In this document: positions 22,919 to 49,988 of the stretch, piece after piece
Position numbering within the stretch: position 1 is the stretch's first letter
How the letters are laid out: each line of letters starts with the position of its first letter
The notes under the pieces: model-generated
What the model saw: only the letters and a program-made list of their open reading frames with translations
Told to the model about the DNA's origin: nothing
Database searches by the model: none
Position numbers and translations under genes: made by a program
From: Apostichopus japonicus
Taxonomy: Eukaryota > Echinodermata > Holothuroidea > Aspidochirotida > Stichopodidae
Direction of reading: 5' to 3'
Assembly: GCF_037975245.1 (NCBI RefSeq)
Contig: NC_092569.1
Span: 18,719,001-18,783,000 of the forward strand
Length of the DNA: 64,000 nucleotides

Positions 22919-23280
22919 GCTGTAGTACAAATCCATTTAGAACACGAAAGAGCAGAACATTGGCCAAACTAGATTCGAACCAGTGAACTCATGAATATGT
23001 ATATGTCATATGCATATGTACAAAAAAGTTCAATTTCCTTTAACCTCCAACCAAACAACAATGTGCTTCTCTTAATGCAGCTAAGATATTTTTGACAGTA
23101 TAGCTGTTGCTCTTATCAAACTAATAGACCGTTTTATGCTTTTTGTACAAATTTTTTGCTCTTTGAAGTGGAACATATTGTTTTAGTCTGCTGATTTGCG
23201 GTTCCTTTGCTGATATTTGTAACAAAACAACCAGCTTCACACATTAAATGTTTATTTGAAATACTGTAAGAAGCTATACA

Positions 23281-23332
23281 TGGGCAGCTATAGGGGTAGC
23301 TATACGGGGGCAGCTATACGGGGGCAGCTATG
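23281..23332. repeat. GGGGCAGCTATAC tandem repeat
   Basis: Four units of about 13-15 bases containing GCAGCTATA or GTAGCTATA. A related shorter array is at 34591-34638, at the same place next to gene D. Confidence 0.75.
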
Positions 23333-23596
23333 CACTAGTTGTCACGTGGGGCCTCTGCAGCTATACTTTCGTGTAACTCGATACCAACCGAAAGCTTTCA
23401 TCTCCAGACAAAAGAAAAAAAGATGTTATGATATATTTAACGTTTTGTCTACTTTTATCCTTTTGAGGGGAGGGGGGGTTAAGTAGCACATTCTACTGCG
23501 ATACGTCACTCTCTAAGAGAATTAAATTTAAGCTTTAAGCAATACAAGTAAAAAAAGAAAGAAACAACAAGTCAAATAAATTTAATTACTTGAATC

Positions 23597-23602
23597 TTTA
23601 TT
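23597..23602 (-). promoter_or_regulatory. Probable poly(A) signal of gene C
   Basis: AATAAA on the minus strand about 225 bases after the stop. The same signal occurs at matching places behind gene D (34915) and gene E (48634). Confidence 0.6.
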
Positions 23603-23826
23603 TCAACTAAATGTATGTCAATCACCATTATAATAAAATCAATAGTTTTTTTCAGCGTTGCATTTACCATGATATTTTATGTTGATTCATATTTTTTGAG
23701 GTAAGTGTTTTTGTTTTCAGGCGTTGCTGCTTCAATTCGAGGTTTTCCGCCTCATTAAAGCAGTATGATTATGAAATGTACTTTAACGTTCTTGATATGA
23801 TATTACGGCAAGACTCACTGTACACA

Positions 23827-26800
23827 TCAGATAGGTCGAATTTTCATTTCTGTGAACATCAAGTTGTAGTGACCTCCAGGTAAATTATCCCACTCAATAC
23901 TATTATCATTTCCACTGGCGGCAAAGTAGTTCGAGTTAAGGTCAGAAGCATCGCAACCATTGTACCACCAAGCACTACGATGATTAACTGCACAGTTATA
24001 ACTACTATGACGGTCATTGTCACTGTTGTATGTAGTGAAGGACATATTCCTGTGATAAGCCATGGAATTATGGTCTGTAGAAAGAACAACATATACACAA
24101 ATGTGTAACAACATGCACAGTTGGAACGAGTTCTTTTTCACATGGGACTGTACACTGAATATCTATATGAGAATATAGCTAAACATAATTTCTTAAAACT
24201 AACTGATATGTGTTTTTTTTTTTTTTTTTTTTGTATTCAACCATATCAGGTTCTGAATTTTCTTTAAACGAGGGTTAGTATTCATGTTTTGTATATTTTG
24301 TTTCTCAAAACAGTCAATTTTGTTTAATTGTGAATAACTGTTTGAGTTCGCAAGGCGAGTTAATTGATTTCCATTCTTTTTTAGTATTTCACAAGAAATT
24401 ATAACCAGTGGTTTATTGGTGTAGTGTGCTTGCCTCTGTGTATTAATCTAATTCTCATAGGCAATTATGATGGTATGTAGTCATAAATGGCATTATCAAG
24501 CCTTTTGACGTTTGCCTATATTTCTCTCAAATAATATTGAAGGTAATGCATTTCATATTTGGTTACTTTAATGTTATCGGTCCTCATTTTGACATCTTTA
24601 TTTGTTATAAATATATAATTAATTATATTAATTAATTTATATATATATAATTACTATATTCGTATTTATTAAACATTACACTGAACTCGTTTTATGTCAT
24701 TTTTAATTCTCTCAACGTGTGTTCTTTATTCATTCAAGTGGTAACAAGGCAATTGGCTTCAAATATAGGTAATCACATTTATTTCTTCTAAACAAACCTA
24801 GCGGAGGAACGTATCAAAGTTTCAACACAGCCAAAAGTGACAGAAGTATAAATCAATTAGGCTATATATTTTAGTTCATAATTTTTAAGAACACTAAACC
24901 AAACTTTCAGTGAATTCACCATAACTACTCATATCGAGGTACCAATAATGATTATTAGTATTATTTATCAAAGTATCCAATTTATACTTTATAGTAACGT
25001 ATGTTAGCCGATTTTCTTTCTTTTTTTGCGTTTGACGTGAGTCTGTAGAGGTAGACGCACTCAATCCGAGAGATCAGGAATCGCACTTTTGTTGCCATGG
25101 TTTTCATTATTTGAGGCAAACAAAGGGATATCAATTTCGAGTCAGTTCCCTTTACAAATAAAGTATTTCTATGTATTTTAGATTTAATGTTAGAAAGTCA
25201 AACTACAGTTCGCTTTATTCTGCTGACGAATGGGAGGGACTTTTTCTGCTGTTATAGGCTTTAAATACATTCAGAGAGACTGATTTTCGTTCTGTAGTAT
25301 GTTTTCTTGTTCCTTAAACTCGCTACGTAGGAACAAGAAATATCTAAAAGATGATGCTCACAGGGGTTCTGAGACATAGAGTACTGTCATATATATATAT
25401 TTTTTTGTCGTACACTTTGCCGATCCCCTTCTTGTATTCCTTCGAAAAGTTACTCGGCAAATAACTAAAGTCTTTCTCAAAAAGGCTAGTCGGCCTTTTA
25501 AAAATGGTGAATGAACGCCTTTGACGACTAGCTAACATCTCTAAATAAATACTTCTGTTCAATAGGATAGCAATTTTATTGGGTTTCTTAACTAATGTAT
25601 AGGTTCCACGTAAGTTGCTATCATATTTAAACCTTGGAAAATTATAGTATCGTAATAGAAACATTAACCTTTGTGAGAGCAAAAGCAGAAAAACATGCAC
25701 TTAAACTTTGAAATAAACATTTTGAAAAAAAAACTGTTTCGATGATAAAGTCTATTTAAAAAAATTAAAAGGACAGAGAATGTAGAGGTTTTAGAAGATA
25801 GATACGTATATAGATGTATGTACTTACTTGCTGTACTTTCTGACAGATACCCTCCTAGATCTACCATTCTGTATTTACGCCACTCATCACTAATACGATG
25901 TAGAGGTAATGTAGAGGTAATGTAGAGGTAATGTAGAGGTAATGTAGATGTAATGTAGAGGTTCAAGAAGATAAAAATGTATGTACTTACTTGCTGTACT
26001 TTCTGGCAGATACCTTCCTAGATCTACCATTCTGTATTTACTCCACTCATCACTGATCCTAAATAGATCGTACTTGGCGAAGTAAGGAACGCCGTTCGCA
26101 TTATTCATGTCAATACGAAGTTCATAATCTTTCTGGTTTGTCAAGTCAGATATTTGATCGTTTCCAAGCCAGAACTCTCTCATTAGAAAGCCAAAACCTT
26201 GTTTGTACTCATTCCATGTCCGGTAGAAGTCAACAGATCCATCTACTCGTCGTTGGATTACCTGACATGAATGATAGAGGATACGCTATAGGTTTGCAAT
26301 AATTATGTGAAGTGCCTGTTACATAATATAACTATTAAAGTGACGTCAAAGGCGAGAGGATCTGTTAAATACTGAAGTATACAACAGTGTCTGGATATTT
26401 TTATACATTACTCATGATGACGGTTGCCAAAGTGACATTTATTTCCGGTGGTCAAAGAGGACACAAAATGTTGTTACACAAGTTGGTGAAACCCTCATTC
26501 CTACAGTCTGTTTTAAAGATAGGATTTTCTTAAGTTTGATGATACTTATCAATTATATTTTATTAATTATTTAAATTGTTTGATTCATTCATGCATTATT
26601 AATGTTATATATTATATACCTGAAAGATGCACAGCAAGTATAACGAAGTAATCATGAAAGCAATTAGCCAAACAGTTTGTTTACTTTTGACAGGAATAAA
26701 TATTATTTTGGAGCGAATACAATCAACATTAAGATTGTATCACACATCATGTTACAGGAATATGATTTGTTGATTTCAAGAACATACGTCATGGTTTAAT

Positions 26801-29800
26801 GTACCCACCACGCTATCAATACCATCATATAGATTGTATTGATTTTGTTTAATAGAGATGACATTATCATCTTGTAAGAACCATTTCACTTTTTGTACAT
26901 AAAGTAGCCGAACTGTTATATAAAGGAATCGAAATTGGGAATGTTTACAGGAATATATAATGAACATTTGATGAAGATGATAATGCAGTTACAAAGATCG
27001 TTTAATAGTTGACAAATGACAACACCCCATATCTCCGACTGAATATCTGCACTCGTTCTACTAGCTACATTCGTTTATTATTTAAATCCTCCAGTCAAAA
27101 CTTCATGAAGAATGCCCCTCCTCCCCCCTACCCCATCCCTTTCCCTTCAAACTCTATTTTGTTTTGAAAAATACACAATACTTACAGTCCAACCGCCACC
27201 ATCAATCGAGTTGTTACAAAAGACCATAAAAGGTTCAGGAGTATTATCTGGTTGAATCATAAAAACACCGGATTCTGTATTTTGATCGTCACATTGCTCG
27301 TAAACTTCTTGACAATCTCTGGGATACTGTGGTTCCTGGTAGTAGAAGTAGGATGAACCTGAAGATAAAGAAACATCTTAGCTTCAAGTTAAGTATGTAA
27401 GTGTTCAAACGTGACCTTGCGGAACTAATATTCAAAGCATTTAACAACATATTACAACTTTAAATTTCTAGTTGTGAAGAAGTAGCAGTCAAATGTAAGA
27501 TTTAAATCTTTAAAATAGAATTTATACTTTAAGATTGAAAGGGATGGTCTAGTTTAGACATTAAACAAGGTCAAAATAATCACAGTTAATTTCAAACTTG
27601 AAATGTTTTCCGTCATCACATGAAAATGGATGATATATACTCACTGCTTGTGTCTCTCCTTTGTCTCAATCGGGAATTATATTCTGTTTTCTCCGAACCG
27701 CCCTGAAAGAACATTTTTACGCTTGTATTACGCATTAATATTTCAAAGATTCCAAATATGAGTTAAAGTTTTAAATTGGAAGCCACCCGACCTGTTAATT
27801 GTAATCCATAAGCCCTTGTTTAGGTGTCGTAAAACAACTGCTGATTATTTTTATTATATTATTATAATTGACACTCTTAAAGTTATCAATGAAAATGACA
27901 TGACATTATTCATGTAGAGGAATTCACTTGTGGAATATTACTTTGCTTTGATCTATAGATAAAAATTTTATGGTAACCAAGTAAAAATAGAACAAAACGT
28001 AAGAATATTTCACAGTCTTTAATTGAATTAATGTGCCGTACAATATTTTTCGTCTAAAACTTGGTATTTTAGAAATCCTTAGATTGTATATTATTATACT
28101 ACTAGTAACAAGTTTTAATGGAGTCGCATTACTTTGGATTTTACCAAGTAAAAATAGAACAAAACGTAAGAATATTTCACAGTTTTTAATTGAATTAATG
28201 TGCCGTACAATATTTTTCGTCTAAAACTTGGTATTTTAGAAATCCTTAGATTGTATATTATTATACTACTAGTAACAAGTTTTAATGGAGTCGCATTACT
28301 TTGGACTTTACCTTTGTCAAAGGAAACATTACAAAACGTTTAAGGTTTTTTTTATTTTTTTATTTTTTTATTAATACTTTAAGCGGCCATTAAGTCTCGA
28401 TCAGAGTAGATATTTGATGATTTCTTTTTAGTTTAATTATTCTACGTTTTGGTTAATCTTTGATGTTTAGATTTAATAAACACGCCAGAAACTGACAAAC
28501 AAAATACTTTATTGCCCCTCTCTATGTGTCGTAACCAACTTCAAATTCAGCAGAAAACAAGAGACAAAAAAAAACTGCATTCAATGTAAATTGTGCAATT
28601 GGTAATATCTCTATGAATCGAACGATACATTTGCCACTGAAGTTTTATCAACTCGGTAACCTGATTGTAAGACACATCCGATGTCTAAAATATCCTCAAA
28701 CTTTAATTACACCACTCAAATTTTACTTAAAACAATACGTGCGTTCAATTATTTATGCAAAATGTTGACATTTTTTAGATTTAAGTTACCATTTCTGTAT
28801 GAGCTATTTTACGGTAGGCATGTAGTGCTTTACAATTACATTAACATTGATCAAATTACATAGTTTTGAGAAGTAATCACAAGTTTGTGATTAGCAAAAG
28901 AGTAATTGTAAATTACATCAGAATTACTGCGATGTGGTTATCAAAGTGTGTCAACACTGTTTAAATATTTTTGTTCACATCATATTTCATGGATTTGCTG
29001 AATCGTTTCAAGTTATATATTTCCAAAAGTATTCAATTTTTAATTTGTTGCAAAATATTTATTTTCGAGAATGCTCTAATTTGAAGGCGTTACTGCCTTA
29101 ATACTACTTTTATACCTTTTTATTTATTTATAGGCTGTAAAAAACCACCAACATTAGATAAAGGCGGGACTTATAACTGCACAGAACCACTCTGTGGTTT
29201 ATTGAGTGAAGGATGTTACAAATATTGAAGTTTTGTTTATGTCAATATGGACATAGATAAGTGGTTTACTATATATATAATATAACAAAATGTTATTTCA
29301 ACACAATTGTTAACTGATGCAATCACATATTAAATTTATTCTGTATTTGCAGTGTCTGAACTTGAAGTAATATGTTCATAAATGTAACAGAAAGTTACAT
29401 TCTCTTCTGAAACAAAATATGCAATGGGGTTTACGGTTTATGATGATAGCCTTTCCCGCAATAAAACGGTGGCATAATAAAACATTATTAAGAGTTATTG
29501 CTTGTGTCATCCAATTATCACAGTTTGGCTTAATTGTAAGGATGAATATTATGAAATGTACATTTTAACTAACGAACGACCATATTTTCAACACATATAC
29601 TCTCCACAAAGCAGAACATTCACTATGAAAAGAGATGGTTTGGATATGTGGGTAATCCTGTAAATGTTTTATTAGAGAGCGTTTATTTGTCTAATAACAA
29701 ATATTTTACAAACTGCTATTCGAGAGATGGTTGGTCATGATAAGTCATTTTCCAAAACTATCTTTAAATATTGTTTGAAAAGTTGAATGGTTTACACCAA

Positions 29801-30283
29801 CACTATAGGTTATATATGATTGAGTAATGCACAGTTACTGGGTTTCTTTCCAACATTAATGAACATGAATTGTCTTTGACAGAGAGCGAGACAAGTATTC
29901 TTGAGTTAAGAATTATGAAGTATTAAATTATATCGACGCTTGTCCTGATGGAATAAAGCCGCAGCAAGTTATGAATAGCCTAACTTAAAGATTGTGTGAT
30001 TATTATGAAACAAAAGCTAACGAAAGAAAAAAACATTCTTTTTTTAATTCAATGCATTCGATCATTTCAACATTTTAAAAGTTTGGAATAAGTTTTGGGT
30101 TTCAGTTCTGATATCATTTGTGTTAAAATGGTTGAACTCTGATAAAATAAAAGAAAGTAGTGTCTACTGTAATAACTGACCAGAAATGAAAATAAGGCTA
30201 CAACTCACCGATTTCAAAGAAGACAGAGAGCTGCCGAATTCAGACAGAAATCCAAAAACCAACAAAATAATCTTGATCTTCAT
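23827..30283 (-). CDS. FReD gene C: secreted fibrinogen-like protein, 274 aa, intact
   Basis: Minus-strand exons in order: 30209-30283 (ATG, hydrophobic signal IILLVFGFLS, GTGAGT donor), 27645-27702, 27186-27358, 25991-26261 and 23827-24074. Lengths 75, 58, 173, 271 and 248 add to 275 codons including the stop. Exon 2 encodes a basic stretch with RQRR, a furin-type consensus. Exon 3 starts FBG (DCQEVYEQC, ending GGGWT), exon 4 holds FWLGNDQISDLTNQKDYELR, and exon 5 ends the domain with SDND, SAWWYNGC and TEMKIRPI. Size and layout match the sea-cucumber fibrinogen-like proteins. Such FBG domains usually bind Ca2+ and sugar or acetyl groups; the ligand here is unknown. Intron 4 holds a truncated copy of exon 4, and intron 1 a recent 167-bp tandem duplication. 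Confidence 0.88.
25828..25965 (-). repeat. Truncated exon-4 copy plus 11-bp minisatellite in gene C intron 4
   Basis: 25828-25898 repeats the last 71 bases of exon 4, codes for RISDEWRKYRMVDLGGYL and a little more, and keeps the phase-1 GTAAGT donor. It has no upstream exon sequence and is fused to about six units of an 11-bp repeat (TGTAGAGGTAA on the plus strand). Confidence 0.85.
26775..26850 (-). mobile_element. Possible tRNA-derived SINE piece in gene C intron 3
   Basis: On the minus strand it has an A-box-like TAGCGTGGTGGG and later GTTCTTGAAATC, which resembles a B box. Gene D has two copies of this block at 38379-38668, and gene E lacks it. Confidence 0.3.
27976..28309. repeat. Two-copy 167-bp tandem duplication in gene C intron 2
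   Basis: Copies at 27976-28142 and 28143-28309 are almost identical, starting ACCAAGTAAAAATAGAAC. They lie between exon 1 (30209) and exon 2 (27702). Genes D and E carry one copy at the matching place, so the event is recent and specific to C. Strictly, this is the first intron of the coding region. Confidence 0.88.
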
Positions 30284-30500
30284 GTTGAGCAATACAGGTG
30301 AACAAATCGTCGAGATTAAGACTGATAGCACTTCACAGCAGGAGAACGAACGCAAGAATGAATTCAAAGCCAATCTGACATTCTCGATATCACTAAATTG
30401 TCTTACTTGAAACAAAGGAGATTGATGACGTAGTCGTTCTATTCAATTGTAAGGATGCTGTGACGCATCTGTTTCAATTTTAAGGAAGTATTGCAAAAAT
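30284..30500 (-). promoter_or_regulatory. Conserved upstream block of gene C
   Basis: The 200 or so bases ahead of the ATG are nearly identical upstream of D (45438-45650) and E (55365-55575), far more so than intron sequence. The block contains TGACGTAG on the plus strand (30426-30433), like an ATF/CREB half-site motif, and TGACGCAT further out. No TATA box is obvious. Promoter function is inferred from position and conservation. Confidence 0.4.
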
Positions 30501-32656
30501 AGTTCAATACCATTGAAAGAACTTATCTTGATGTTTTGACTAATCGAAATTACAGTTGCAAAATTTATTAGCGTCTCATATTGAACGCCATACAAGGATA
30601 TACAATATTTATGTTTAGATCATAGTAAATGTGTAATATTCAGTTAAGTGATCAGATAATGAGATCAGATTATGAAGACCGATAAGCGAAAGTAATTAAT
30701 ATGCTACTGCTGTTTCAAACAATAACTGGCAGATATATAATTTAAAAAATTAACGTTGAACATAACACAAGAAGTTACTTTTAAAACAAGTAAATCTAGA
30801 CTCGGGCAACAATATATTTTAAAGAAGATTAATGTAATCAAGCAGATCAGAATGATTTTATTTGTTTCATGTTAAAAAATTTCTTTTACAGGAATCATTT
30901 TATCACTTACAGGAATCTGCCAAACTAATAAAACCACATTGATGACTCGTTTGACTCGTTTTGACTCTTTGACAAGAATCTGACATGAAGGTTAAATATA
31001 GAAAATGTCAAACCAGATAAAATAATTAATTATATGCTTATTCAACTCGATCAAATGATGGTCGAGCGTTAATGTTATTAATATGAACCTTAAAAAATCT
31101 CTAGGATTGTCAATTTACCCAATCTTTGAGCCACAGTTAGACAAACATAGTTAGCAAAGATCTTTACCTTACGGATGATTCAACCAGAAATGTAACATTT
31201 GGGATATTTTTGTATAGCCATAGACGATTGTGTTGCTTCATATAGGCTACCTCAGAATTGCAATGTACACGCGTGCATCGCATTGCTTTAGTGTTATACC
31301 AATGAATATATGAATGGAACAATCAGGTCACTTGATGCGGTTTTAGAAGGGCAAAGTAGCTCAACGCCTGCAGACTATAGTTGTCTGATTTGTGGATGAA
31401 CGTTACATTAGAATTGTGACATTTGCCCAAAATATATATATTACTTACACCACCTCATTAGTTGAATTAGCTTAATGTCCATGGATAAATTAAGCAAGTT
31501 TTTTTTGCTTCGTATATATCTAATAGATGTCACGTGACAATACATTTTATAGCCCTGCTGCAAGAATGCGCCGAAAGTTGTTTGTATTGTTATATGACGT
31601 AGGCCTACACTTGAAAAGAATGGCACAGCAATCCTTTCTTAGTGAGATAAAGGTATCGAAGTATTTCGAAGAAACATGTTTCCCAATGGTGTGTAAATGT
31701 ACAGGTCATATCTAATAACTGAATAACTCAACCAGAACTGTAACATTTATGATCGTTTTACCGCCATGGACAATTGTGTTGCTTCATGTATCTCAGATTT
31801 CAAGGTACACGCGTGCATCGCATTGCTTCAGTGTTACGTCAGTGAATATATGAATCAGCCAGTTTACTAGGTTACTAGGTTACTACATGCGGTTTAAGAA
31901 GTAGCTCAACTGCTGTAGACTGTCTGATTTGAGAATGAACGTTGAATTGTAACATTTGTTCTAAATGTTGTAAGTGACCTTTGCAAGTAGTGAAAGTTAT
32001 ATAATTGCTGAGTGTCTTCCTACATAAGTTATTTTTGTGTGTCAAAATAGTGAAAGTTGTCACGTGACAACATAGGGTGAGATGTTTCAATTGGTCGGTC
32101 GATCTGTTTAACTGTTGTTCCATCTTTATCGACACAGTATACGGCACACGATACACAGCTGTTTCTTGCAATCTAGGCAAGGGCTTAGTCATTGGTACAA
32201 TTCGCCACGAATGTTCGGCTCCTACGTATCGATTCCGTGTGTATTAATCAGAACGCTATGAATGATACATGACCATAAAATATCGGAACATATAGTTACA
32301 GTACACGGTAAAATCATTTAGGAGAGAAGTGGTGTACTAAGCCATTGCAAAGTCTTTTATACACAATCGCAGAAATTCTTTCCTGCAAGTGTAAAATAAG
32401 TCTCTTCTTAAAATCTTTCCAAGTGCATAATATATTACACATCATGCGACACTAGGTCAAATTATTAACAAATTGTAAACGCAATAACTGTGGAGCTTGG
32501 ACGAACTTCATTTCTTGAATATAGTTCTACCTTAAGTATTGCTGCGCAACATCGTACACATAAATCATGTCACTTGCTGCTATTGTCTGCTGTTAGTGGT
32601 TGTGACAAGTGTCTGCTCTTCATGGCTGCTAGCTTCAAACCAATTTGAAGTTTACA
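30501..32656. other. Spacer between gene C and the orphan TRNAU1AP exon
   Basis: No supported gene. The sequence is shared, with indels, with the spacers upstream of D and E. Two related blocks within it (about 31250-31440 and 31790-31950, each with ACACGCGTGCATCGCATTGCTT) are themselves diverged duplicates. Confidence 0.5.
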
Positions 32657-32734
32657 ATGGAAGAGTCAAGCTTAAGTTTAGTAAATTCATACTCAATGCA
32701 AGCTATCGGTAAAAGATCCTTATGGATGGGAAGT
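32657..32734 (+). pseudogene. Orphan copy of TRNAU1AP exon 1 (intact)
   Basis: It has 78 bases, ATG to GTAAGA donor, and codes for the same 26 residues as TRNAU1AP exon 1 at 59785-59862 apart from two Ser-to-Leu changes, including QAIGKRSLWMGS. Homology with the true gene continues into intron 1 and stops at about 33534 (matching about 60776), before exon 2. No RRM exon follows, so it cannot make the protein. If its promoter was copied too, it may still be transcribed and spliced to some downstream acceptor. Confidence 0.85.
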
Positions 32735-33535
32735 GTAAGAACTTTTTTTTTCTTTTTGCGCTGCTGTTATAGTTACGTACGCTTCGTACTCTGATCTGTA
32801 CGGCCGGTTGAACCTGGCATATGGTTGGTTTAAATGTATTAGACTAAGTTATATACAACATCGAGTATGCATGAAATTACATTGGGACCATTTCCGCGAC
32901 AAAGAAATGTACATGCCTAGTTTACAAAATTGTAGTCTGGCATCCATTTACCGGAATTAAAACCATGCAACAAGTTGGCAAAATGGTGCATTTTGACGTT
33001 TTCTTGGTTTTGAACATACAACTATGCAATCATTGTTAGTCTAGCGGAATTTGACCATAGCAACGGTTAAATCATGCCATTGAAAGATAATAAAAGAGAA
33101 AAATCAAAGGGATTGGTAAGGATACCAATTATCACTGAAGTTTAAGAGCTAACATAAATCTCCTAATGACTTCATCATGTTTTTGGTATTTACTGATGAA
33201 TGCAGAATGGTAATTATAAACACGACAGTTATACTGTATTTTGGTGTCAGTCTCTACAGACAGTGGTATTTGTCGTTGGCCAGTATGTCTAGATAGTTGC
33301 TACTGCCCCTAGTGTATCCAATATGTAACTGTTTGAGTGTCGCCCTTGTATATCTAGGGATATGCTAGTGATAGCAGCTGATGTATACGTAGAACATTGT
33401 ATCTCAAACTCTAGTATTGATACATACTGTACTGTTGGCCTAGAGCATTGTTTTAATCATACGAGATCAATAAATTTGCATAAAGTAACCCTCATGACTA
33501 CTGTTAATGAATGACTAATGAGACAAGATTCACCT

Positions 33536-34190: not shown

Positions 34191-34590
34191 ATTTATGTGC
34201 TCTCTGTGTGTTTATACATTCTAGTCCAAAGACTTTTCCATCTACAAATGAAGTGAAGCAGAAGCTATAGCTTTTAATTCACTGTTTTGTTTTTTACCAT
34301 TCCAAATTTTGCTATTTCCTTTTCATCTTATTTTTGTTTATTTCAAAATGATAGTGGTATATAGATACATGGGAAAGACACAACCGTATTTACTTTCTTG
34401 TCGCTAAGATGTTTTTAGCAGTTCCTTTCGCTCTTATTAAATTAATAAAACGTTTTATGCTTTCTGTACAAGTTCATTGTTCTTTGAAGTGGAACATATT
34501 GTTTTAGTCTGCTGATTTGCCTTCCTTTACTGATATTTGTTACAAAACAACCAGCTTCACACATTAAATGTTAACTTGAGGGACTGTAAG

Positions 34591-34638
34591 AAGCTATACA
34601 GGGGCAGCTATAGGGGCAGCTATACGGGGACAGCTATG
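34591..34638. repeat. GGGGCAGCTATA tandem repeat
   Basis: Three to four units, the counterpart of 23281-23332. Confidence 0.75.
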
Positions 34639-34914
34639 AACTAGTTGTCACGTGGGGCCTCTGCAGCTATATTTTCGTGTCACTCGATACCAACCGGAGC
34701 TTTCATCTCCCAACAAAAGAAAAAAATGATATGTTATGATATATATTACGTTTTGTCTACTTTCCTCTTTGTTTTTTGTTTTTTTGGAGGGTGTTAAGTA
34801 GCACATTCCACTGCGATGCGTCACTCTCTGAGAGAAATTAAATTTAAGCTTTAAGCAATACAAGTAAACAACAAGAAAGAAACAACAAGTCGAATAATGT
34901 TAATCACATGAATC

Positions 34915-34920
34915 TTTATT
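34915..34920 (-). promoter_or_regulatory. Probable poly(A) signal of gene D
   Basis: AATAAA on the minus strand about 223 bases after the stop, matching genes C and E. Confidence 0.6.
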
Positions 34921-35142
34921 TCAACTGAATGTATATCAATCACCATTATAATACAATCACTAGTTTCTTTTCAGCGTTGCATTTATCATGATATTTCATG
35001 TTAATTCATATTTTTTTGAGGTAAGTGTTTTTGTTTTCAGGCGTTGCTGCTTCACCTCTATGTTTTCTGCCTCATAAAAACAGTATGTTTAATGTACTTT
35101 GACGTTCTTGATATGATATTACGGCAAGACTCACTATAGATA

Positions 35143-38100
35143 TCAGATAGGTCGAATTTTCATTTCTGTGAACTTCAAGGTGAAAGAACCTCCAGGTAAA
35201 TTATCCCACTCAATACTAGCATCATTTCCACTTGCGGCATAGTAGTTCGAGTTAAGGTCAGAATGATCGCAACCGTTGTACCACCAAGCACTATGATTAG
35301 TAACGGCACAGTTGCTACTATAACGGTCATTGTCACTGTTGTATGTAGTAAAGGACATATTCCTGTGATAAGCCAGGGAATCATGGTCTGTGGAAAGGAT
35401 AGCATACATACATAAATGTGTAACAACATGCACAGTTGAAACGAGTTTCTTTTTCACATGGGACTGTACACTGAATATCTATAGGAGAGTATATCTAAAC
35501 ATTTTTTTAAACTAACTGATATGTGTTTTTTTGTTTTTTTAACAGCCATATCAGGTTCTGAATTTTCTTTGAACGAGGATTATTATACATGCTATGTATA
35601 TTTTTACTTCAAAACAGTCAATTTTGTTTTATTGTGAATAACTGTTTGAGTTCACAAGGCGAGACAAGATACGTCCAAAGTTAATTGATTTTCTTTTTTT
35701 TTTAGTATTTCACAAGAAATTATAACTAGTGCTTATTGGTGTAATGTGCTTGCATCTGTTTATCAATCTAATTCCCATAGGCAATTATGATGGTATGTAG
35801 TTATAAACGGCATTTATCAAGCCTTTTGACGTTTGCCTATTTTTATCTCAAATAATATTGAAGGTATCGCATTTCATATTTGGTTACTTTAATGTTATCG
35901 GTCCTCATTTTGAAATCTTTATTTGTTATTAATATATAATTAATTATATTAATTACTTTATATATAATTACTATATTCGTATTTATTAAACATTACACTG
36001 AACTCGTTTTATGTCATTGTTAATTCTCTCAACGTGTGTTCTTTATTCTTTAAAGTGGTAACGAAGCAAATGGCTTTCAAATATACGTAAACACATTTAT
36101 TTCTTCTAAAAAAAACTTGTGGAGGAGTGTATCAAATTTTCAACACAGCCAAAAGTGACAGCAGCATAAATCAATTAGGCTCTATATTTTAATTCATAAT
36201 TGTTAAGAACACTAACCAAACTTTCAGTCAATTCACCATATCTATAACCTTATTTCGAAGCACCTATAATTCATTATTAGTTTTATTAATCATAGTATCC
36301 AGTTTATACTTAATAGTAACGTATATTAGCCGATTCTGGGGGTATTTGATGTGTGTTTTTAGAGGTACACGCAATCAACCCGAGAGATCAGGAATCGCAC
36401 TTTGGTTGCCATGGTTTTCATCATTTGAAGCAAACAACGTGACTTAAACTTCGAGTCAGTTCCCTTTACAAATAAAGTTTGTCTATTTTGTTTTTTTAGA
36501 TTTAATGTTAGAAAGTCAAACTACAGTCCGTTGTATTCTGCTGACGAATGGGAGGGACGTCTCCTGTTGTTATAGGGCTTTTAAATACATTCAGAGAAAC
36601 TGAATCCCGCTCTATCGTATGTCTTCTTGTACCTTAAACTCGCTACTTAAGAACAAGAATTATCTAAAAGATGCTGCTCACATGGGCTTTGAGATATAGA
36701 GTAAATAAACTTACTGTCATGCATATTTTTTACTGTACACTTTGCCAATCCCCTTCTTGTATTCCTTCAAAAAGTTACTCGGCAAATAACTAACTGTCTC
36801 GAGAAAGCTAGTCGGTCTTTTAAATATGGTGAATGAACGTCTTTGACGACGGCCCACACGTTAAGATTACATTTTATACGAGAATGAATGCACTAGCTTA
36901 CGTCTCTGAATAAACACTTCTGTTCAATAGGATAGCAATTTTATTAGGTTTCTTGACTAATGTATACGTTCCATGTAAGTTGTTATCATATTTAAACCAT
37001 GGAGAATTATAGTATCTTAATAAAAGCAACAACCTTTGTGAGAGCAAAAGCAGAAAAGAGCATGCTATTTAACTTTGAAGTAAAAATTTGGAGGAAAAAA
37101 TGTTTCGATGATAAAGTCTGTTTTAAAGAATTGCAAATGTAATAGGACAGAGAAAGTAGAGGTTCTAGAAGGTAGATATGTTTGTACTTACTTCCTGTAC
37201 TTTCTGGCAGATACCCTCGTAGATCTACCATTCCGTATTTACGCCACTCATCACTAATACGGTGTAGAAGTAATGTGGAGGTAATGTACAGTTAAAGTAG
37301 ATGTAATGTAGAGGTTCTAGAAGATAGAAATGTATGTACTTACTTTCTGTACTTTCTGGCAGATACCCTCCTAGATCAACCATACCGTATTTACTCCACT
37401 CATCACTTATACGATGTAGAAGTAATGTAGAGGTAACGTAGAGGTAATGTAGAGGTATTGTAGAGGTATTGTAGAGGTAATGTAGAGGTTCAGGAAGATA
37501 GAAATGTATGTACTTATACTTGCTGTATTTCTGGCAGTTACCCTCCTAGATCTATGATTCCGTATTTACGGTAGAGGTAATGTAGAGGTAATGTAGAGGC
37601 AATGTAGATGTAATGTAGAGGTTCTAGAAGATAAAAAGTATGTACTTACGTGCTGTACTTTCTGGCAGATACCTTCCTAGATCTACCATTCTGTATTTAC
37701 TCCACTCATCACTGATACGAAATAGATCGTACTTGGCAAAGTAAGGAACGCCGTTAACATTATTCATGTCAATACGAAGTTCGTAATCTTTCTGGTTTGT
37801 CAAGTCAGATATTTGATCATTTCCAAGCCAGAACTCTCTCTTTAGAAAGCCAAAGCCTTGTTTGTACTCATTCCATGTCCGGTAGAAGTCAACAGATCCA
37901 TCTACTCGTCGTTGGATTACCTGACATGAATTATAGAGGAGAACGTTATAGGTAGTCTGCAATAATTATGTGAAGTGGCTAATATCAGTAACATAATATA
38001 ACTATTAAAGTGATGTCACAAGCGAGAGGATTTGTTAAATACTGAGGTATACAACAGTGTCTAGATATTTAAATACATGATAACGGTTGCCAAAGTGAAA

Positions 38101-41100
38101 TTTATATTTGGTGGTCAAAGAGGACACAAAATGTTGTCACACAAGTTGGTGAGACCCTCATTCATACAGTATATTTTAAAGATAAGATTTTCTTAAGTTT
38201 GATGATACTTATGAATTATATATTAGTCATTATTATTAATTATTTAATTAATTAATTAGTAATTAATTATTAATTACAAACCTGAAAGACGTACAGCAAG
38301 TATAACGAAGTAATCATGAAAGCAATTAGCCAAACAAATCAGTTTCTTTACTTTTAATAGTAATAAATAATATTTTAGAGCGATTACAATCAACATTAAG
38401 ATTGTATCACACATCGTGTTACAGGAATGTGATTTGTTGTTTATTTCAAGAACATATGTCTTGGTGTCCTGTACCCACCGCGCTACCAATACCAACATAC
38501 AGATTTTATTGATTTTGTTTTGGAGCGAATACAATCAACATTAAGATGGTATCACACATCGTGTTACAGGAATATGATTTGTTGATGATTTCAAGAACAT
38601 ATGTCTTGGTGTCCTGTACCCACCGCGCTACCAATACCAACATATAGATATTATTGATTTTGTTTAATAGAGATGACATTGCCATCATGTAAAAACCGTT
38701 TCATTTTTTTACATAAAGTAGCCTACATGTTATGAAATTTAAAAGGATCGAAATTGGGAAAGATTACAGGAATATATAATGAAAATTTGATGACGATGAT
38801 AATGCAGTTACAACGATCGTTTAATAGTTGACGAATGACAACACCCCAGATTTCCGACTGCATCTCTGCACTCGTTCTACTAGCTACATTCGTTATTATT
38901 TAAATCCTCTAGTCAAAACTTCATGTAAAATGCCCCTCCTCTCCCCTATCTTATCCCTTTCCCTTCAAACTCTATTTCGCTTTGATAAATACAAAATACT
39001 TACAGTCCAACCGCCTCCATCAATCGAGTTGTTACAAAAGACCATAAAAGGTTCAGGAGAATTATCTGGTTGAATCATAAACACACTGGATTCTGTATCT
39101 TGGTCGCCGCATTGTTCGTAAACTTCTTGACAATCTCTGGGATACTGTGGTTCTTGGTAGTAGAAGTAAGATGAACCTGAAGATAAAAAGTAAGCGTCTT
39201 AGTATCAAGTAAAGTTTGTCATTCTTCAAACGTGACCTTGCGGAACTAATATTCAAAACATTAAACCGCATAATACAACTATAAATCACTAGTTGTGAAA
39301 AAGTAGCAAGCAAATGTAAGATTTCAATCTCTTAAATATACTTTTCGCTTTAAAATTGGAAGGGATGGTCTAGATGAGACATTATAACACGTACAAGGTC
39401 AAAATAATCAGTTAATTTCAAACTTTAAAAGGTTTTCCGTCACCACACGAAAAGGGATGATATATACTCACTGCTTGTGTCTCTCCTTTGTCTCAATCGG
39501 GAATTATATTCTGTTTTCTCCGAACCGCCCTGAAAGAACAGTATTACGCTTGTTTTACGCATTAATATTTCAAAAGATTCCAAATTTGAGTTAAACTGTT
39601 AAATTGGAAGCTACCCGACCTGTAAGTTGTAATCCATAAGCCCTTGCGAGTTTCTCCCACATTTGTGATCGCTAAGGCGTCGTAAAAATAACTGCTGATT
39701 ATTATTATTATATTATTATAAATGAAACTTTTAAAATTATTAATCAAAATGACATGACATTATTCATGTAGGGCAATTCACTTGTGGAATAGTACTTTGC
39801 TTTGCTATAGATAAAAATGTTATGGTAACCAAGTTAAAATAATAACAAAATGTAAGATTATTTCACAGTTTTCAAATGAATTAATGTCCCGGACAATAAT
39901 TTTGGTGTAAAAGTTGGTATTTTAGAAATCGTTAGATTGTTTATTATACAACTACTAACAATTTATAATTACTCCCATGGAGTCGCATTACTTTGGACTC
40001 TACTTTTCACAAAGGAAACATTACAAAACGTTAAAGGTTTTGTTCATAAATAATACTTTTAAGCTGCCATTAAGTCTCGAACGGAATAGATATATTTGAT
40101 GATTTCTTAGTTTGATTATTCTATGTTTTGGTCAATCTTCGATGTATAGATTTACTAAACACGTCAGAAACTGACAAACAAAAATACTTTATTGCACCGC
40201 TCTGTGTATCGTAACCAACTTTAAATTCAGCGGGAAACAAGAGACAATAAAAGTCTGCATTCAGTGTAAATTGTACAATTGGTAATATCTTTATGCATAG
40301 AACGTTACATTTGACAAGTTATCAACTCCGTAACCTGATTGTAAGACACGTCCGATGTCTGACATATTCTCGAAATTTAATTAGACCACTCAAATTTTAC
40401 TTTTAACAACACGTTTGTTCAATACTTTATGCAAAATGTTGACATTTTTTTAGAATTAAGTATACCATTCTGATTATTCTGTATGAGCTATTTTACGGTA
40501 GACTTATAGTGCTTTGCAATTCCCTGGTGGAAATTCCAGTTGAAATTTTGAACTGGGTTCAACTGGAATTTTCTATACGGAAATTGGCCCAAATTTGAAC
40601 TAGGTTGAAATGGGTAAACTGGGTCCAACTGGTTCAACTATGTTTTACTGGGTCCAACTGGTTCAAGTTCAACTATGTTTTACTGGGTCCAACTGGTTCA
40701 ACTATGTTTTACTGGGTCCAACTGGTTCAACTATGTTTTACTGGGTCCAACTGGTTCAACTATGTTTTACTGGGTCAACTATGTTTTACTGGGTCCAACT
40801 GGTTCAACTTTATTTTACTGGGTCAACTATGTTTTACTGGGTTCAACTGGGTCAACTATGTTTTGCTGGGTTAAACTGGGTGAACTATGTTTTACTGCTT
40901 TTATTTTTAAATAGTTTAAACTGGGATTCTCAACTGGTGTTATCTACACAATATAACACCACACTATAAGAAGTTTTCATTATTTTTACAGTAGATCTAT
41001 ACTGTATGTGTTAGGGTGTTAGCCACTGAAAATAAATGTTTGTTCTTGATCAGAGAACTCTGGATTTGGTGTGATGACCAAATACAGAGCAAGACACATA

Positions 41101-44100
41101 AAAAAATGGAGAACTCAACTGGATTGGATCAAAAGAAATTATAATTATGAAAAACAAACAAAGTACAGTTGATCTTGGATCAGTCAAAGAATTAAATGAA
41201 ATAACTTACAGTGGTGAGGTGCGCACCCAAAATATAAAGAAATACACTTAATTTAAAAGTATGTTCTGGTGATTTGGCCTGCTGGTGATATCAAGTATTC
41301 TACGACCTCAGATCTTCCACGACATCAGATCTACAACCTCAGTATAGTTGATCCCCAATAAATGGTATGTCCGATCCCAACAAAATACAGTAGTATCCTT
41401 TAATTTATATGAAATATTGTCCAGGGTATCCTTTCAGTAAAATAATGTCAATATCCTTTGTACATAGTAAAATAATGTCCTTTATAAGTGATGGTGTCCC
41501 AGAATATCCTTTATGTAAAATAATATCCTTTATAGTAAAAAGTATCCTTTAAAATAAATAGTGTCCCAGACTATCATTGAGTATCACAAATTCCATAAAA
41601 TAATAAGGTCTACAGTAACTTGAACTATGTAAATTAAGGTTTAAAACAAACTATCTAGATATTAAACTATCTTTCTCTTCTTTTACAACTGCCTTGCTCA
41701 GATACTCATAGCCAACTGCCTAACTACCTATACCCTCACAAAACTCCTTTGTTCCTAAAATATATACACACAGACCCCATTTCCTGTGAGGGAATTATTT
41801 CGAGGAAGAACAAGATAGTTGCCTAGCAACCCAGAAGAGAGAAAATTGTTAATCAACCCCTTTGCTGACACACGACAACATACAAATATACTGTACAAAT
41901 GTTTAACCCTCTGTACAGTGAACACTGCACTAATAAACAAGTAAAACTATGGTACCAAACAAAACTTTATGTAAGAGCTGACCATCTTACACTGCACTAA
42001 TGAAGCCTCACTTAAAATTAGATTGATATTTTAATCATATGTTCATAATGTTCAGTGTAGGGCATCCTCACATTTGTAGCATATACGTGTATGCTGTATA
42101 CTTCACTAATGACTTTTGCAAAGTATGTTATTATGCCAATAGGACACTTCATGTTTGAAACAACAATCAAGGCAATTGCGTTAATTTTGAAATATCTGTG
42201 AGCTTCTTTTGTTTGTGACACCTTAAGAAGTTGCCATTATGTTCGCTAGTTGACAATAGCTTTCCTAAAATCATGCGGCTAAATATAGTGTTAACTTGAG
42301 TATAACTACTGTAGGTTAGGCCCTTATAAAGTATAAGCTAGTCAACTAAAACGTTAGAATATGTCTAACGTTAGTAAATGTACCATGTAGTATACCTAGT
42401 AGGGAACCGGTTTGTTAGGCCTAGCCTATACTATAGTCCTAGGCCACTATATACAAAGTTTCTGTTCAATTCAAATATTTATGATAAAGAGCACGTTTAT
42501 AATCAATTATAACGTTACAAGTATGTAACAATAATATAAAGATACTGCAAGATCACAAAGGAGGGAACTTAGCCGCGGTAATTATTTGAAATTGTTGGCA
42601 AAATCGGTTACAAATGCAATTCTGCGAAGCTTCTGTTGGCGTTTGTGGTTTGCGGATTCGGAATTTATAAATTTAGCCCAACGCAAGACAAATGTCAAAG
42701 TTCAAATTTAGTCGGATCATACTATTTAGCACTAGGAAGGCATTTTGCCTACCAATTGTTCAAATCGCCGAACAAAGTATAAACATAATTTTTTCAAATT
42801 TATTATATAGTAAATATTTCATATCTTTAATCATTGCGGTACAAAAGTTTAATCGTTTAATCATAACTGTGATAAATATGACAAAGATTTATTTTACACC
42901 CCTCATAAGTTGGCTAGTTTAGCATTTTCAATATATTACGATACGGTTACTGCTTACGAACTTACATTTGATTATTACGCCAAAAATAAAAGCAGTCAAC
43001 ATAGTCCAGACCCAGTTGAGCCAGTGTGAAACCTAGTTCAACCCCAACAGGGAAAGTTCACCAGTAAACATAGTTCAAACCCAGTTGGGCTTGTGCAAAC
43101 CAGTGAAACCTAGTTAAATCCCAGCTGGGTCAGTTCACCAGCCAACAGTCCAAACCTAGTTGGGCCAGTGCAAAACCAATGAAACCTAGTTCAACCCCAA
43201 CAGGGCAAGTTCACCAGTCAACATAGTTCAAACCCAGTTGGGCTAGTGCAAAAACCAGTGAAACCTAGTTGAAGCCCAACTGGATCAGTTCAAACATAGT
43301 TCAAATTCAGTTTGGCCTGAACAAACCCAGTTGAACATTGTGTAAACCCAGCTGAACCTAGCTCATGTACAGCATAGCCCAGTTGGAACCCAGTTAAACA
43401 CAGTTAAAAACCAGTTAAACATAGTAGGCCCTAGTAGAACCTAGTTGATTTTTTTAACTGGGTTCTACTGGAATTTCTACCAGGGTTACATTAAGATTGA
43501 TCAAATAACAGAGTTTTGAGAAGTATTTACAAGTTTGTATTAACAAAAGAGTGTTTTTAAGTTACTTTAGAATTACTGCGATGTGGTTATCAAAGTGTGT
43601 CAATACTGTTAAAATTGTTTATTTAACATCATATTTCATGGATTTGTTGAATCGTTTCAAGAAATATATTTCCAAAATTATTCAAAATTTAATTTGTTGC
43701 AAAATATTTTCTTTCAAGAATGCCCTAATTTAGAGGGGCAAATGTCTAAATACTTCTTTTATCTTTTGATTTATTTTGTATATTTTCCTTACACAATTAT
43801 TTGGCCTGTAAAACACCACCAACAATAGATAAACGCATGACTTTTAACTGTACGGAAGGACGATTTATTTAGGTCGACATGGACATAGATAAGTGGTTTA
43901 CCATATATATTGTGTATAATGTTATTATGAAAATGTTATTTCAACACAATTGTAAACTATGGTAATCACATATTAAACTTATTATGTGTTTGCAGTGTCT
44001 GAACTTGAATTAATATGTTCATAAAGGTAACAGAAAGTTACATTCTCTTCTGAAACAAAATATGCAATTGTGTTTACGGTTTATGATGATAGCCTGCTAT

Positions 44101-45437
44101 TCGAGAGATGGTTGGTTCTGATTAAAAAAAATCCAAACTATCTTTGAATATTGTTTGAAAAGTTGAATGGTTTACATAAACACTATAGGTTTTATATGAT
44201 TGAGTAATACACAGTTACTTGGTGTCTTTCTAACATTAATAAACATGAATTGTTTTAGACAGAGAGCGAGACAAGTATGCTTGAATTAAAAATTCTGAAG
44301 TATTAAAGTAACTTGTCCTGGTGAAATAAAGCCGCAGTAAGTTATGAATAGCTTCACTTAAAGATTGTGTGATTATTATTAAACGAAAGCAAACGAAAGA
44401 AATAAAACATTGTTTGGTTATTTCAATGCATTCAATCATTTCAACATTTAAAAAGTTTCTTTTATCTTTTCATTTATTAAACTTATTCTGTATTTGCAGT
44501 GTCTGAACTTGAATTAATATGTTCATAAAGGTAACAGAAAGTTACATTCTCTTCTAAAACAAAATATGCGATGGAATTTACGGTTTATGATGATAGCCTT
44601 TCCCGCAATAAAATGGTGGCATAATAATACATTATTAAGAGTTTTTGCTTAAAATATATAGCATAAAAGCTCTCTTATGTCATCAAATTATCACAATTTG
44701 GCTTAATTGTAAGGATACATATTATAGAATGTACATTTTAATGAACAAACGATCACATTTGCTACACATATACCATTCACAAAGCAGAACATTCACTATG
44801 GAAATTTTCCAGCGATGGTTTGGATGTTTGGGTAATTGTGTATATGTTTTATTAGAGAGAGTTGATTTGTCGAACCGTACAAATATTTCAAAAACTGCTA
44901 TTCGAGAAGATAGGTTTTTTCAAACTATCTTTGAATATTGTTTGAAAAGTTGAATGGTTTACACAAACACTATAGGTTTTATATGATTGAGTAATGCACA
45001 GTTACTGGGTTTCTTTCCAACATTAATAAACATGAATTGTTTTAGACAGAGAGCGAGACAAGTATGCTTGAATTACAAATTATGTAGTATTAAAGTAACT
45101 TGTCCAGGTGAAATAAAGCCGCAGTGAGTTTTTAATAGCTTCACGTAAAGATTGTGTGATTATTATCAAACGAAAGCAAACGAAAGAAAAAAACATTGTT
45201 TTGTTAATTCAATGCATTTGATCATTTCAACATTTAAAAAGTTTGAAGTAAATTTGGGGTTTCAATTCTGATTTGTGTTAAATGGTTGAACTCTGATAAA
45301 ATAAAAGAAAGTAGTGTCTACTGTTATAACTGACCAGAAATGAAAAGAATGGTAAAACTCACCGATTTCAAAGAAGACAGAGAGCTGCCGAATTCAGACA
45401 GAAATCCAAAAGCGAACAAAATAATCTTGATCTTCAT
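35143..45437 (-). CDS. FReD gene D: secreted fibrinogen-like protein, 273 aa, intact
   Basis: Exons in order: 45363-45437 (ATG, signal peptide), 39472-39529, 39004-39176, 37650-37920 and 35143-35387. Lengths 75, 58, 173, 271 and 245 give 274 codons including the stop; all joins are in phase. It is a close paralog of C: the same RQRR exon, the same FBG layout, C-terminal SDND, SAWWYNGC and EMKIRPI. Differences: the conserved Gly in ESGVF is Ser (ESSVF); exon 4 ends GCA C instead of GCA A, so the junction codon is His rather than Asn; exon 5 is one codon shorter. Intron 4 carries three truncated exon-4 copies, and intron 1 holds a 3-kb inserted element and a tandem duplication, which explains why this gene is the longest of the three. 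Confidence 0.88.
37192..37649 (-). repeat. Array of three truncated exon-4 copies with minisatellite, gene D intron 4
   Basis: Copies at about 37192-37263, 37344-37415 and 37519-37570 repeat the exon end (ISDEW..YLPEST) with its donor; the third is shortened and shifted. Short runs of the 11-bp unit GTAGAGGTAAT separate them. Confidence 0.85.
38379..38668. repeat. Two-copy 145-bp tandem duplication in gene D intron 3
   Basis: AGCGA(A/T)TACAATCAACATTA starts each copy, at about 38379 and 38524. Gene C has a single copy near 26713. The unit contains the tRNA-like piece described at 26775. Confidence 0.8.
40545..40915. repeat. 29-bp minisatellite, left arm
   Basis: The unit ACTGGGTCCAACTGGTTCAA followed by CTATGTTTT repeats with a period of 29, for example at 40682, 40711 and 40740, with shortened units later. 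Because 29 is not a multiple of 3, all three frames stay open; these frames are not genes. Confidence 0.92.
43005..43470. repeat. Degenerate minisatellite, right arm
   Basis: Units such as AACCTAGTTCAACCCCA and CACCAGTAAACATAGTTCAA resemble the reverse complement of the left arm. Units are more diverged than on the left. Confidence 0.8.
43984..45266. repeat. Large tandem duplication in gene D intron 1
   Basis: GTGTCTGAACTTGAATTAAT occurs at about 43996 and 44499, and the following blocks, up to AACATTTAAAAAGTTT, recur in order. The first copy lacks an internal stretch of roughly 280 bases. Genes C and E have one copy (from about 29352 and 54331). Confidence 0.75.
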
Positions 45438-47174
45438 GTTGAGCAATACAGGTGAACAAATCGTCGAGATTAAGACTGATAGCACTTCACAGCAGGAGAA
45501 CTAACGCAAGAATGAATTCAAAGCCAATCTGACATTCTCGATATCACTAAATTGTCTTACTTGAAACAAAGGAGATTGATGACGTAGTCGTTCTATTCAA
45601 TTGTAAGGATGCTGTGACGCATCTGTTTCAATTTTAAGGAATTATTGCAAAAATAGTTCAATACCATTAAAAGAACTTATCTTGATGTTTTGACTAATCG
45701 AAATTACAGTTGCAAAGTATTTACGTCTCATATTGAACTCCATCCATCGTATTGCTTTAGTGTTATACCAATGAATATATAAATCAAACAATCAGGTCAC
45801 TTGATGCGGTTTCAGAATGCCAAGTAGCTAAACGCCAGCAGAGTAGTTGTCTGATTTGTGGATGAACGTTACATTAGAATTGTAACATTTGCCAAAAATA
45901 TGTATTACTTGTTTCAACTCATTAGTTGGGATTACCTTAGTTGCTCATGGTTTAAATAAGCAAGTTTTTTTGATGCTTCGTAATATCTGATAGATGCCAC
46001 GTGACAATACAATTTATAGCCCTGCTGCAAGAATGCGCCGAAAGTTGTTTGTATTGTTATATGACGTAGGCGTACACTTGAAAGGAATGCAAAGTAATCC
46101 TTTCTTAGTGAGATAAACGTATCGAAGTATTTCAAAGAAACATGTTTCCCAATGGTGTGTAAATGTTCAGGTTATATCTAATAACTGAATGACTCAACCA
46201 GATGTGTAACAATTATGATCGTTTTACCGCAATAGACGGTTGTTTTGCTTCATGTATCTCAGATTAACAAGGTACACGCGTTCATCGCATTGCTTCAGTG
46301 TTACGTCAGTGAATATATGAATCAACCAATCAGGTTACTACATGCCGTTTTAAAAGTAGCTCAACTCCTGTAGACTGTCTGATTTGTGAATGAACGTTGA
46401 ATTGCAATATTTCTTCTAACTGTTGTAAGTGACCATTGAAAGTAGTGAAAGATAAATAAGTGCTGAAGGTCTTCCTTCATAAGTGTTTTTTTTTTTTTTT
46501 TTGTCAAAATAGTGAAAGTTGTCACGTAACAACATAGGATGTTCCGACGTATGGTACATATTTAGGTCATTATTTCTTCTCAGTTAGATGTTTCAATTGG
46601 TCGGTCGGTCTGTTTAACTGATTTCGTTCCATCCTTGTCGACACAGTACACGGCACACGGTACACAGCTGTTTTCTGAAATCTAGCTATAGGCTTAATCA
46701 TTGGTACAATTCGCCACAAATGTTCGGCTCCTACGTATCGATTCCGTGTGTATTCAAATTAACGCTTTGAATGATACATGACCATACAATATCGGAACAT
46801 ATAGTGACAGTACACGGTGAGATCATTTAGGAGAGAAATGGTGTACTAAGCCATTGCAAAGTCTTTTATACACAATCGCAGAAATTCTTTCCTGCAAGTC
46901 TAAAATATGTTTCTTATTGAAATCTTTCCAAGTGCATAATATATTACACATCATGCGACTCGAGTAAGGTTGGCGGTCCAACTAAAAAAAAAAATTGTAA
47001 ACGAAATAACTCTGAAAGTTGAGCTTGGATGAACTTCATTTCTTGAATATAGTTCCACCTTATTTATTGCTGCACAACAGCGTACAAATAAATGCTGTTA
47101 TTGTCTGTTGTAAGAGGCTGTTGCAAGTGTCTGCTCTTCATGGCTGTTATCTTCAAACCAATTCGAAGTTTACA
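45438..47174. other. Spacer upstream of gene D
   Basis: No supported gene. The proximal 200 bases match the conserved upstream block of C and E, with TGACGTAG at 45580-45587. Relative to C, about 650 bases are missing at about 45740, where sequence matching 30590 joins sequence matching 31275. Confidence 0.5.
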
Positions 47175-47236
47175 ATAAAAGAGTCAACCTCAGGTTCAGT
47201 AACTTCATCCTCAATGCAAGCTATCGGTAAAAGATA
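47175..47236 (+). pseudogene. Orphan copy of TRNAU1AP exon 1 (broken)
   Basis: It is homologous to 59785-59862, but the start codon is ATA and a deletion of about 18 bases removes the LWMG codons and the splice donor. MQAIGKR is still readable. Confidence 0.8.
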
Positions 47237-48633
47237 CAAGAACTTCTTTTCTTTTGCGCTGCTGTTATAGTTATGTACGCTTCGTACTCTGATCTGTGCG
47301 GCTGGTTGAATCTTGGCATATGGATGGTTTGAATGTTTTGGACTAAGTTATATACAACATTGTGTATGCAAGAAATGAATTGGGACCATTTCCGCGACAA
47401 AACGCCTAGTTTACAACATTGCAGTCTGGCATCCATTTTACCGGAATTAAAAACATGCAACAAGTTGACGACATTTTGGGTTTTTTTTTATACGTTTCCT
47501 TGCTTTTGAACTTCAATCATTGTAATCATTGTAAGTCTAGCGGAATTTGACCATAGCAACGGTTAAATCATGCCATTGAAAGATGATAAAAGAGAAAATC
47601 AAAGGGATTGATAAGGATACCAATAACCACTGAAGTGTAAGAGCTAACATAAATCTCCTCAGAACTTCATCATGTTTTTGGTATTTACCGATGAATGCAA
47701 AATTGATATTAATTTAAAACGACAATAATACTGTATTCTATATATGTGTCAGTCTCTACAAACAGTAGCATTTGTCGTTGTCCAGTATGTCCAGATAGTT
47801 ACTACTGCCCCTGGTGTGTCCATTGTGTAACTGTTTGAGTATAACCCTTGTACCTCTAGGGATTTGCTAGCGCTATCAGCTGGTAGTAGACGTAGAACAT
47901 TGTACCTCAAACTCTAGTATTGATACATGCTCTACTGTAGGCGTTGAGCATTTCAATGTTTAAATCATGAGATATTAATAATTTTGCATAAAGTAACCCT
48001 CATGGTTGAAAGAGAGTGTGCACCTCCACAACCGGGGGATCCACGCCTGAGAGTTTCGCGGGTCCGGAGGGGTGATGTTACTCTTCTCCGACTAAATGTA
48101 AGGAAAATCAACAGCTGAACGCCCACAGACCCTACCAACATACCCCACTCCCTTCCCTCCTTCCCCCTCCCTTGCGCAAATCATTGAACTGCCAGATATA
48201 TTACCAGAAATAATCCAAGTCCTTACTGAAAGGAAATTTATGGACGCCACTGGAAGGAGGCTGTTGACGGAGGGTTCCGTAGCCATCCTAAACTACCTTC
48301 CCAATGCTTCAACAGATGCGAACATCAAACATTTAAACACTTCAAACTTCTTCTTTATTAGTTTCAGAAAACTTAATGTTTACATGAGAGACTGTAGGAA
48401 ACGTTGAAATAGTTGTCATGAGGGACTTCTGCAGTTAAACTTTCGTGTCACTCGAAACCAACTAAAGGTTCAATCTCCAGAAACAAACGATGTGGAATGA
48501 TATGTAATCAGGCTTTTTACTTGTTAAGTAGCACATGCCAATGCGATACTTCACTATCTGGGAGAAATTAAGTTTCAGCTATACAAATAAGACAAGAAAA
48601 CAGCAAGGCCAATAGTTTCAATAACATTAAATC
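47237..48633. other. Region between the broken orphan exon and gene E
   Basis: Copied TRNAU1AP intron 1 sequence runs to about 48003. A more GC-rich insertion of unknown nature follows (about 48003-48300), then flank sequence like that before C and D. One plus-strand frame in the insertion (about 48177 on) codes for LPEIIQVLTERKFMDATGRR and onward, with no family recognised. Confidence 0.45.
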
Positions 48634-48639
48634 TTTATT
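48634..48639 (-). promoter_or_regulatory. Probable poly(A) signal of gene E
   Basis: AATAAA on the minus strand about 222 bases after the stop, matching C and D. Confidence 0.6.
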
Positions 48640-48860
48640 GATTTCTACTAAATGTATATCAATCAACCATTATTATACAATCACTAGACTCTTTTCAGCG
48701 TCTGCATTTATCATGATGTTTTATATTGATTTACATTTTGTTGACAGTGTGTGCTTTTTCTTCAGGCTTTGTAGCTTCAACTCTGAGAATTTCCGCCTCA
48801 TTGAAGCAATTATATTTTGATGTTCTTGACATGATATTACGGCAAGATTCACTGTAGACA

Positions 48861-49927: not shown

Positions 49928-49988
<61 letters not shown>

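Follow-up and report, generated by a model that had tools for sequence, protein, structure and literature searches.

Within a window of 64,000 nucleotides of Apostichopus japonicus DNA lies what looks like an intact first exon of the selenium-related gene TRNAU1AP, stranded among immune-type FReD genes and far from the rest of the gene. Is this orphan a working alternative start, or a by-product of duplication in the surrounding FReD array? Its coding part occupies 32657..32734 on the plus strand (MEESSLSLVNSYSMQAIGKRSLWMGS) and is followed directly by GTAAGA. On re-reading, the coordinates given by an earlier, sequence-only reading proved exact, and its description of an intact exon was borne out: the ATG is kept, the frame is open and the GT donor is present. 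Over 84 aligned bases, made up of the exon and the first six bases of the intron, this copy (copy A) departs from the real exon 1 (59785..59862, plus strand; MEESSSSSVNSYSMQAIGKRSLWMGS) at two sites only, exon positions 17 and 23. In both cases T replaces C and TCA (Ser) becomes TTA (Leu), which confirms the two Ser-to-Leu changes reported earlier. The identification of the piece as a TRNAU1AP first exon detached from its gene is likewise supported.

The similarity extends to either side of the coding part. Immediately upstream, the presumed 5' UTR or start-region copy (32608..32656, plus strand) differs from the real copy at 2 of 49 bases; downstream, most of TRNAU1AP intron 1 has been copied (32735..33527, plus strand), with homology ending at 33527 (60775 in the real gene), before exon 2. 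The 144-base stretch 32608-32751, hereafter the core, is 97% identical to the real copy, far above the chance level, versus about 82% in the neighbourhood. From its last base, the orphan exon is 27,051 bases from the start of real exon 1 and 28,181 bases from the start of real exon 2. The earlier statement that the next TRNAU1AP exon is more than 27 kb away thus holds for the real exon 1; a broken exon-1 copy, the closest to the orphan, is just 14 kb off.

The complete gene lies at the right-hand end of the window, on the plus strand. Exon 1 is followed by exon 2 (60915..61012), exon 3 (62190..62292), exon 4 (63138..63196) and exon 5 (63707..63813), and the gene runs on past the window end. 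We read the start of exon 2 as 60915 (AACAG|TTAGAT, phase 0), rather than at 60922 as had been proposed. Exons 2-5 each gave one match in the genome search. A Pfam scan matched RRM_1 in two stretches within exons 1-5; RRM 2 seems, on inspection by eye, to have its second half in the sequence beyond the window, and PF17654, the Pfam model for Trnau1ap, scored above its cut-off at a single place in the genome, about 4.6 kb beyond the window end. From order and strand, we infer that the RRM exons and the C-terminal Trnau1ap match belong to one TRNAU1AP (SECp43) transcript. Vertebrate TRNAU1AP exon 1 likewise ends directly after the motif SLWMG.

We searched the genome (671,581,487 bases in 35 contigs) for further copies of exon 1. 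The 144-base core occurs at three places (3 of 3 candidates scored), all inside the window, at 32657, 47175 and 59785, a count to which gaps in the assembly could conceal additions. The copy at 47175..47235 (plus strand; copy B) is broken: ATA replaces the ATG, and a 17-bp deletion takes the exon end and the donor. A longer query recovered the same three loci and two further, short matches, both 5' of the coding part: one on contig C11 (59 bases, 83% identity; window positions 32581-32639) and one on C5 (about 70 bases, 79% identity; 32560-32630). These weak matches to 32560-32639, just upstream of the orphan exon, perhaps mark an old repeat. A tRNA scan found no tRNA.

Self-comparison of the window placed each exon-1 copy at the right end of one of three tandem units, arranged head to tail and colinear. 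Each unit carries a minus-strand FReD gene with a signal-peptide-like start: gene C in unit 1 (23080..33527; start 30283), gene D in unit 2 (34403..48004; start 45437) and gene E in unit 3 (48405..60775; start 55364). The DNA upstream of the FReD gene comes next, and then an exon-1 copy (the orphan, the broken and the real one, respectively) and intron 1 sequence, of which units 1 and 2 contain a part and unit 3 most. The right ends of the units, at 33527, 48004 and 60775, all fall short of exon 2, which follows unit 3 only. Fibrinogen_C matches were found on minus-strand FReD exons of all three units, by a domain scan of selected exons with signal peptides judged by eye; the earlier placement of genes D and E on the opposite strand between the orphan and its gene was therefore correct. 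A genome-wide Fibrinogen_C search, in which 150 of 2729 candidates were scored, had no match within the window among those listed.

Because homology stops before exon 2, and because exon 2 occurs once, the orphan is best read as the stump of a duplication. We conclude, with a probability of roughly 0.87, that it is the 5' end of TRNAU1AP, copied in part when a FReD gene was duplicated in tandem with a breakpoint in TRNAU1AP intron 1, and that it is decaying without detectable constraint of its own. The ancestral layout would have been a FReD gene head to head with TRNAU1AP. Tandem duplication with its right-hand breakpoint within TRNAU1AP intron 1 would then have left each left-hand copy with exon 1 and an intron fragment fused to foreign DNA, as at 33527, the rightmost copy alone retaining the whole gene. 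Decay of the stumps would since have removed the ATG and donor from copy B, while copy A still has both. The orphan most likely yields no stable TRNAU1AP mRNA, and at most weak, unspliced or early-ending transcripts. That the stumps are the derived copies we infer from the existence of a single complete TRNAU1AP gene. Retroposition was considered and ruled out, since the intron and the upstream DNA were copied too.

The junctions depart from those of a clean, textbook tandem duplication. Units 1 and 2 are separated by 33528-34402, which matches the 3' flanks of FReD genes in part only, and inverted: the DNA beyond 33527 is an inverted match to the sequence that comes after two other FReD genes of the window, A and B, and it recurs further upstream on contig C9, as far as 18616891. 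In unit terms, unit 1 and unit 2 end about 30 bases apart. The 400 bases between units 2 and 3 (48005-48404) had no other match in the genome search, a junction unlike that of unit 1.

Partial copying of genes at the DNA level is frequent in Caenorhabditis elegans and Drosophila, according to passages of a review (PMC3449122). The orphan resembles the partial gene duplicates described there in being a fragment of one ancestral gene copied as DNA: upstream and intron 1 sequence are included, the homology to the gene takes in exon 1 and most of intron 1 alone, and exons 2-5 and the C-terminal match were each found once. It differs from the duplicates in those passages in that the main duplicated gene here is the FReD gene, with the TRNAU1AP exon a passenger present in two extra copies.

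The 97% identity of the core, set against about 82% around it, could be taken as a sign of selection on the orphan, an interpretation that was not upheld once the third copy was used to assign changes. In the two-way comparison, the orphan and the real copy differ at 4 of 141 core sites and at 210 of 1245 flank sites (p=9e-7). The three-way counts, which exclude columns gapped in any copy, place the difference on one side. Changes private to the real copy number 1 of 124 in the core versus 132 of 1210 in the flanks, the latter including changes common to A and B on their stem (p=3e-5), and none of 964 flank windows of 124 columns had as few as one. Changes private to copy A number 3 of 124 in the core versus 48 of 1210 in the flanks (Fisher p=0.62), and 256 of the 964 flank windows had three or fewer. 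Within the coding part alone the count is 2 of 61 (p=1), 61 of the 78 exon columns being used because 17 are deleted in copy B. For changes private to copy B, the counts are 11 of 124 and 72 of 1210 (p=0.24). The real copy is therefore strongly constrained in the core, and the assignment of changes among the three copies indicates that the similarity mostly reflects conservation of the real exon, viewed in comparison with a young stump. A match of 97% does not speak for selection on a copy if it is the live exon that is constrained.

Like an unprocessed pseudo-exon, copy A has accumulated substitutions at the rate of its flanks, though the stem and A branch taken together are weakly low. With a clock and tree assumed, and 3% of the flank divergence assigned to the common stem, these branches carry 3-4 core changes where 8.6 are expected (P 0.028-0.070). 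This shortfall, together with the observation that none of the 964 flank windows is as close to the real copy as the core is, may therefore reflect an earlier period in which the stump was constrained, or gene conversion with the real exon as donor. Gaps give no information on constraint either way: of 11 gap runs private to copy A, the core contains 1, roughly what its length would predict. Since the substitution pace resembles that of the surrounding DNA, the orphan is most likely an ordinary by-product and not a working alternative start.

An intact ATG, frame and donor might still seem surprising in a decaying stump. We simulated neutral decay of the real exon, counting a copy as intact if it kept the ATG, the frame and the donor GT and had no stop, with indels at 0 to 0.9% per site. 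The probability of remaining intact was 0.32-0.64 at 4% substitutions and 0.23-0.47 at 7%, and ranged from 0.17 to 0.72 over the whole grid of 3% to 10%. Both coding changes in the orphan are non-synonymous, a class to which 158 of the 225 point changes possible in codons 2-26 belong. For two such stumps, it is nothing unusual that one should be intact and the other broken.

Gene conversion from real exon 1, which would keep the orphan intact by overwriting it, is improbable, and yet it survives better than the other alternatives to a decaying stump. The excess of similarity in the core described above is what conversion would produce, and the units are mosaics: across nine blocks spanning 23080-60775 the closest pair of units varies from block to block, with units 1 and 2 nearest to each other in the exon-1 region. 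These block-wise shifts suggest that gene conversion or unequal exchange may have operated within the FReD array. At the orphan itself, constraint on the real copy and the small number of copy-A-private changes are enough to explain the similarity, and the two changes of the orphan's own lie in the middle of the putative tract.

Somewhat less probable is that the stump retains an active promoter that starts a plus-strand RNA, noncoding or chimeric, running antisense to FReD gene D or further. The DNA upstream of the orphan is homologous to that of the real gene, and genes D and E have their FReD exons on the opposite strand. Against this, the stump is without detectable constraint, and AATAAA strings, which resemble polyadenylation signals, occur from 355 bases past the exon (the first three at 33089, 33469 and 33621).

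A far alternative first exon is a shade more doubtful again. Transcription would start at the orphan and splicing would join it to 60915, so that residues 6 and 8 of the resulting TRNAU1AP would be Leu; the real exon 1 would be skipped because, as a first exon, it presumably has no acceptor. The orphan offers the same ATG, frame, phase and donor as the real exon, its presumed 5' UTR is identical at 47 of 49 bases, its upstream DNA lacks the repeat that interrupts the upstream region of the real gene, and the weak deficit of changes on the stem and A branch points the same way. The intron needed would be 28,180 bases long, versus a published mean of 1,845 bp; passages of PMC10344927 give this value for the final A. 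japonicus gene set, with 1,286 in the text and 3,776 for the raw transcript set. By crude count, that stretch contains 48 AATAAA strings, where base composition predicts 35, and 19 acceptor-like sites in which 12 or more of 15 bases are pyrimidines; the acceptor of the real exon 2 has 7 of 15. These counts may nonetheless be compatible with rare splicing to exon 2. Neither role suggested for the orphan by the sequence-only reading, the far alternative first exon or the start of an antisense or chimeric RNA, found support: neutral decay often leaves such a copy intact (P 0.23-0.64 at 4-7%), changes on the A branch run at the flank rate, the sister copy is broken, and the intron would be 28 kb against a mean of 1.8 kb, the stem and A signal being weakly contrary.

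A bolder version of this reading arises mainly because it is the live gene, and not the orphan, whose upstream region is rearranged. A dispersed 332-bp repeat (59364..59695) lies about 90 bases 5' of the real ATG and is absent from copies A and B. It has 40 matches on 16 contigs, itself included, of which 14 cover at least 95% of its length. Copies A and B are therefore natural empty sites, and the insertion, found at the real copy alone, assigns the rearrangement to the live gene. If transcribed and joined to exon 2 by splicing across 28 kb, past two antisense FReD genes, the orphan would be a duplicated start that supplements a gene with a repeat-invaded upstream region, as an early UGT1-like first-exon cluster built from a passenger exon; we regard this as highly unlikely. 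Two copies of the repeat elsewhere (C16:14944631 and C22:25072022) lie about 0.7 and 1.2 kb from FReD matches, which may be coincidence.

The first-exon clusters of UGT1 and the protocadherins, as described in passages of PMC3325998, provide the comparison for such an arrangement. The likeness lies in tandem first-exon copies placed before one shared set of downstream exons: here, same-strand copies at 32657, 47175 and 59785 precede a single exon 2. The extra first exons of this locus differ from usable, selected ones: copy B has neither ATG nor donor, and copy A, usable by sequence, is without detectable constraint. What sets this locus apart from the clusters in those passages is that one of the two extra copies is broken, that no constraint was detected on the extra exons, and that two antisense FReD genes intervene.

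It is also highly unlikely that the conserved block belongs to a promoter that also serves FReD gene C and is kept as such: the arrangement is head to head in 3 of 3 units, but the distance between the FReD ATG and that of the exon-1 copy varies (2.4, 1.7 and 4.4 kb in units 1, 2 and 3), and the block is without detectable constraint on A or B.

Tandem duplication of a FReD gene together with part of TRNAU1AP would explain why a near-perfect, coding-looking TRNAU1AP start recurs inside a FReD array, and its significance is mainly for annotation: neither a 28-kb intron nor a second TRNAU1AP locus should be built on the orphan. Expanded, tandemly duplicated fibrinogen-related genes (FREP/FReD) have been described in A. 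japonicus (PMC5638244), and the window's tandem genes with Fibrinogen_C exons resemble the arrays in passages of that account, which mention neither TRNAU1AP nor carried-along exons. Among FReD genes C, D and E, the signal-peptide exon of gene E (55280-55364, minus strand) lacks the donor GT, with AAATCTTTGAGT where genes C and D have AAATCGGTGAGT; gene E may therefore be damaged or use another donor.
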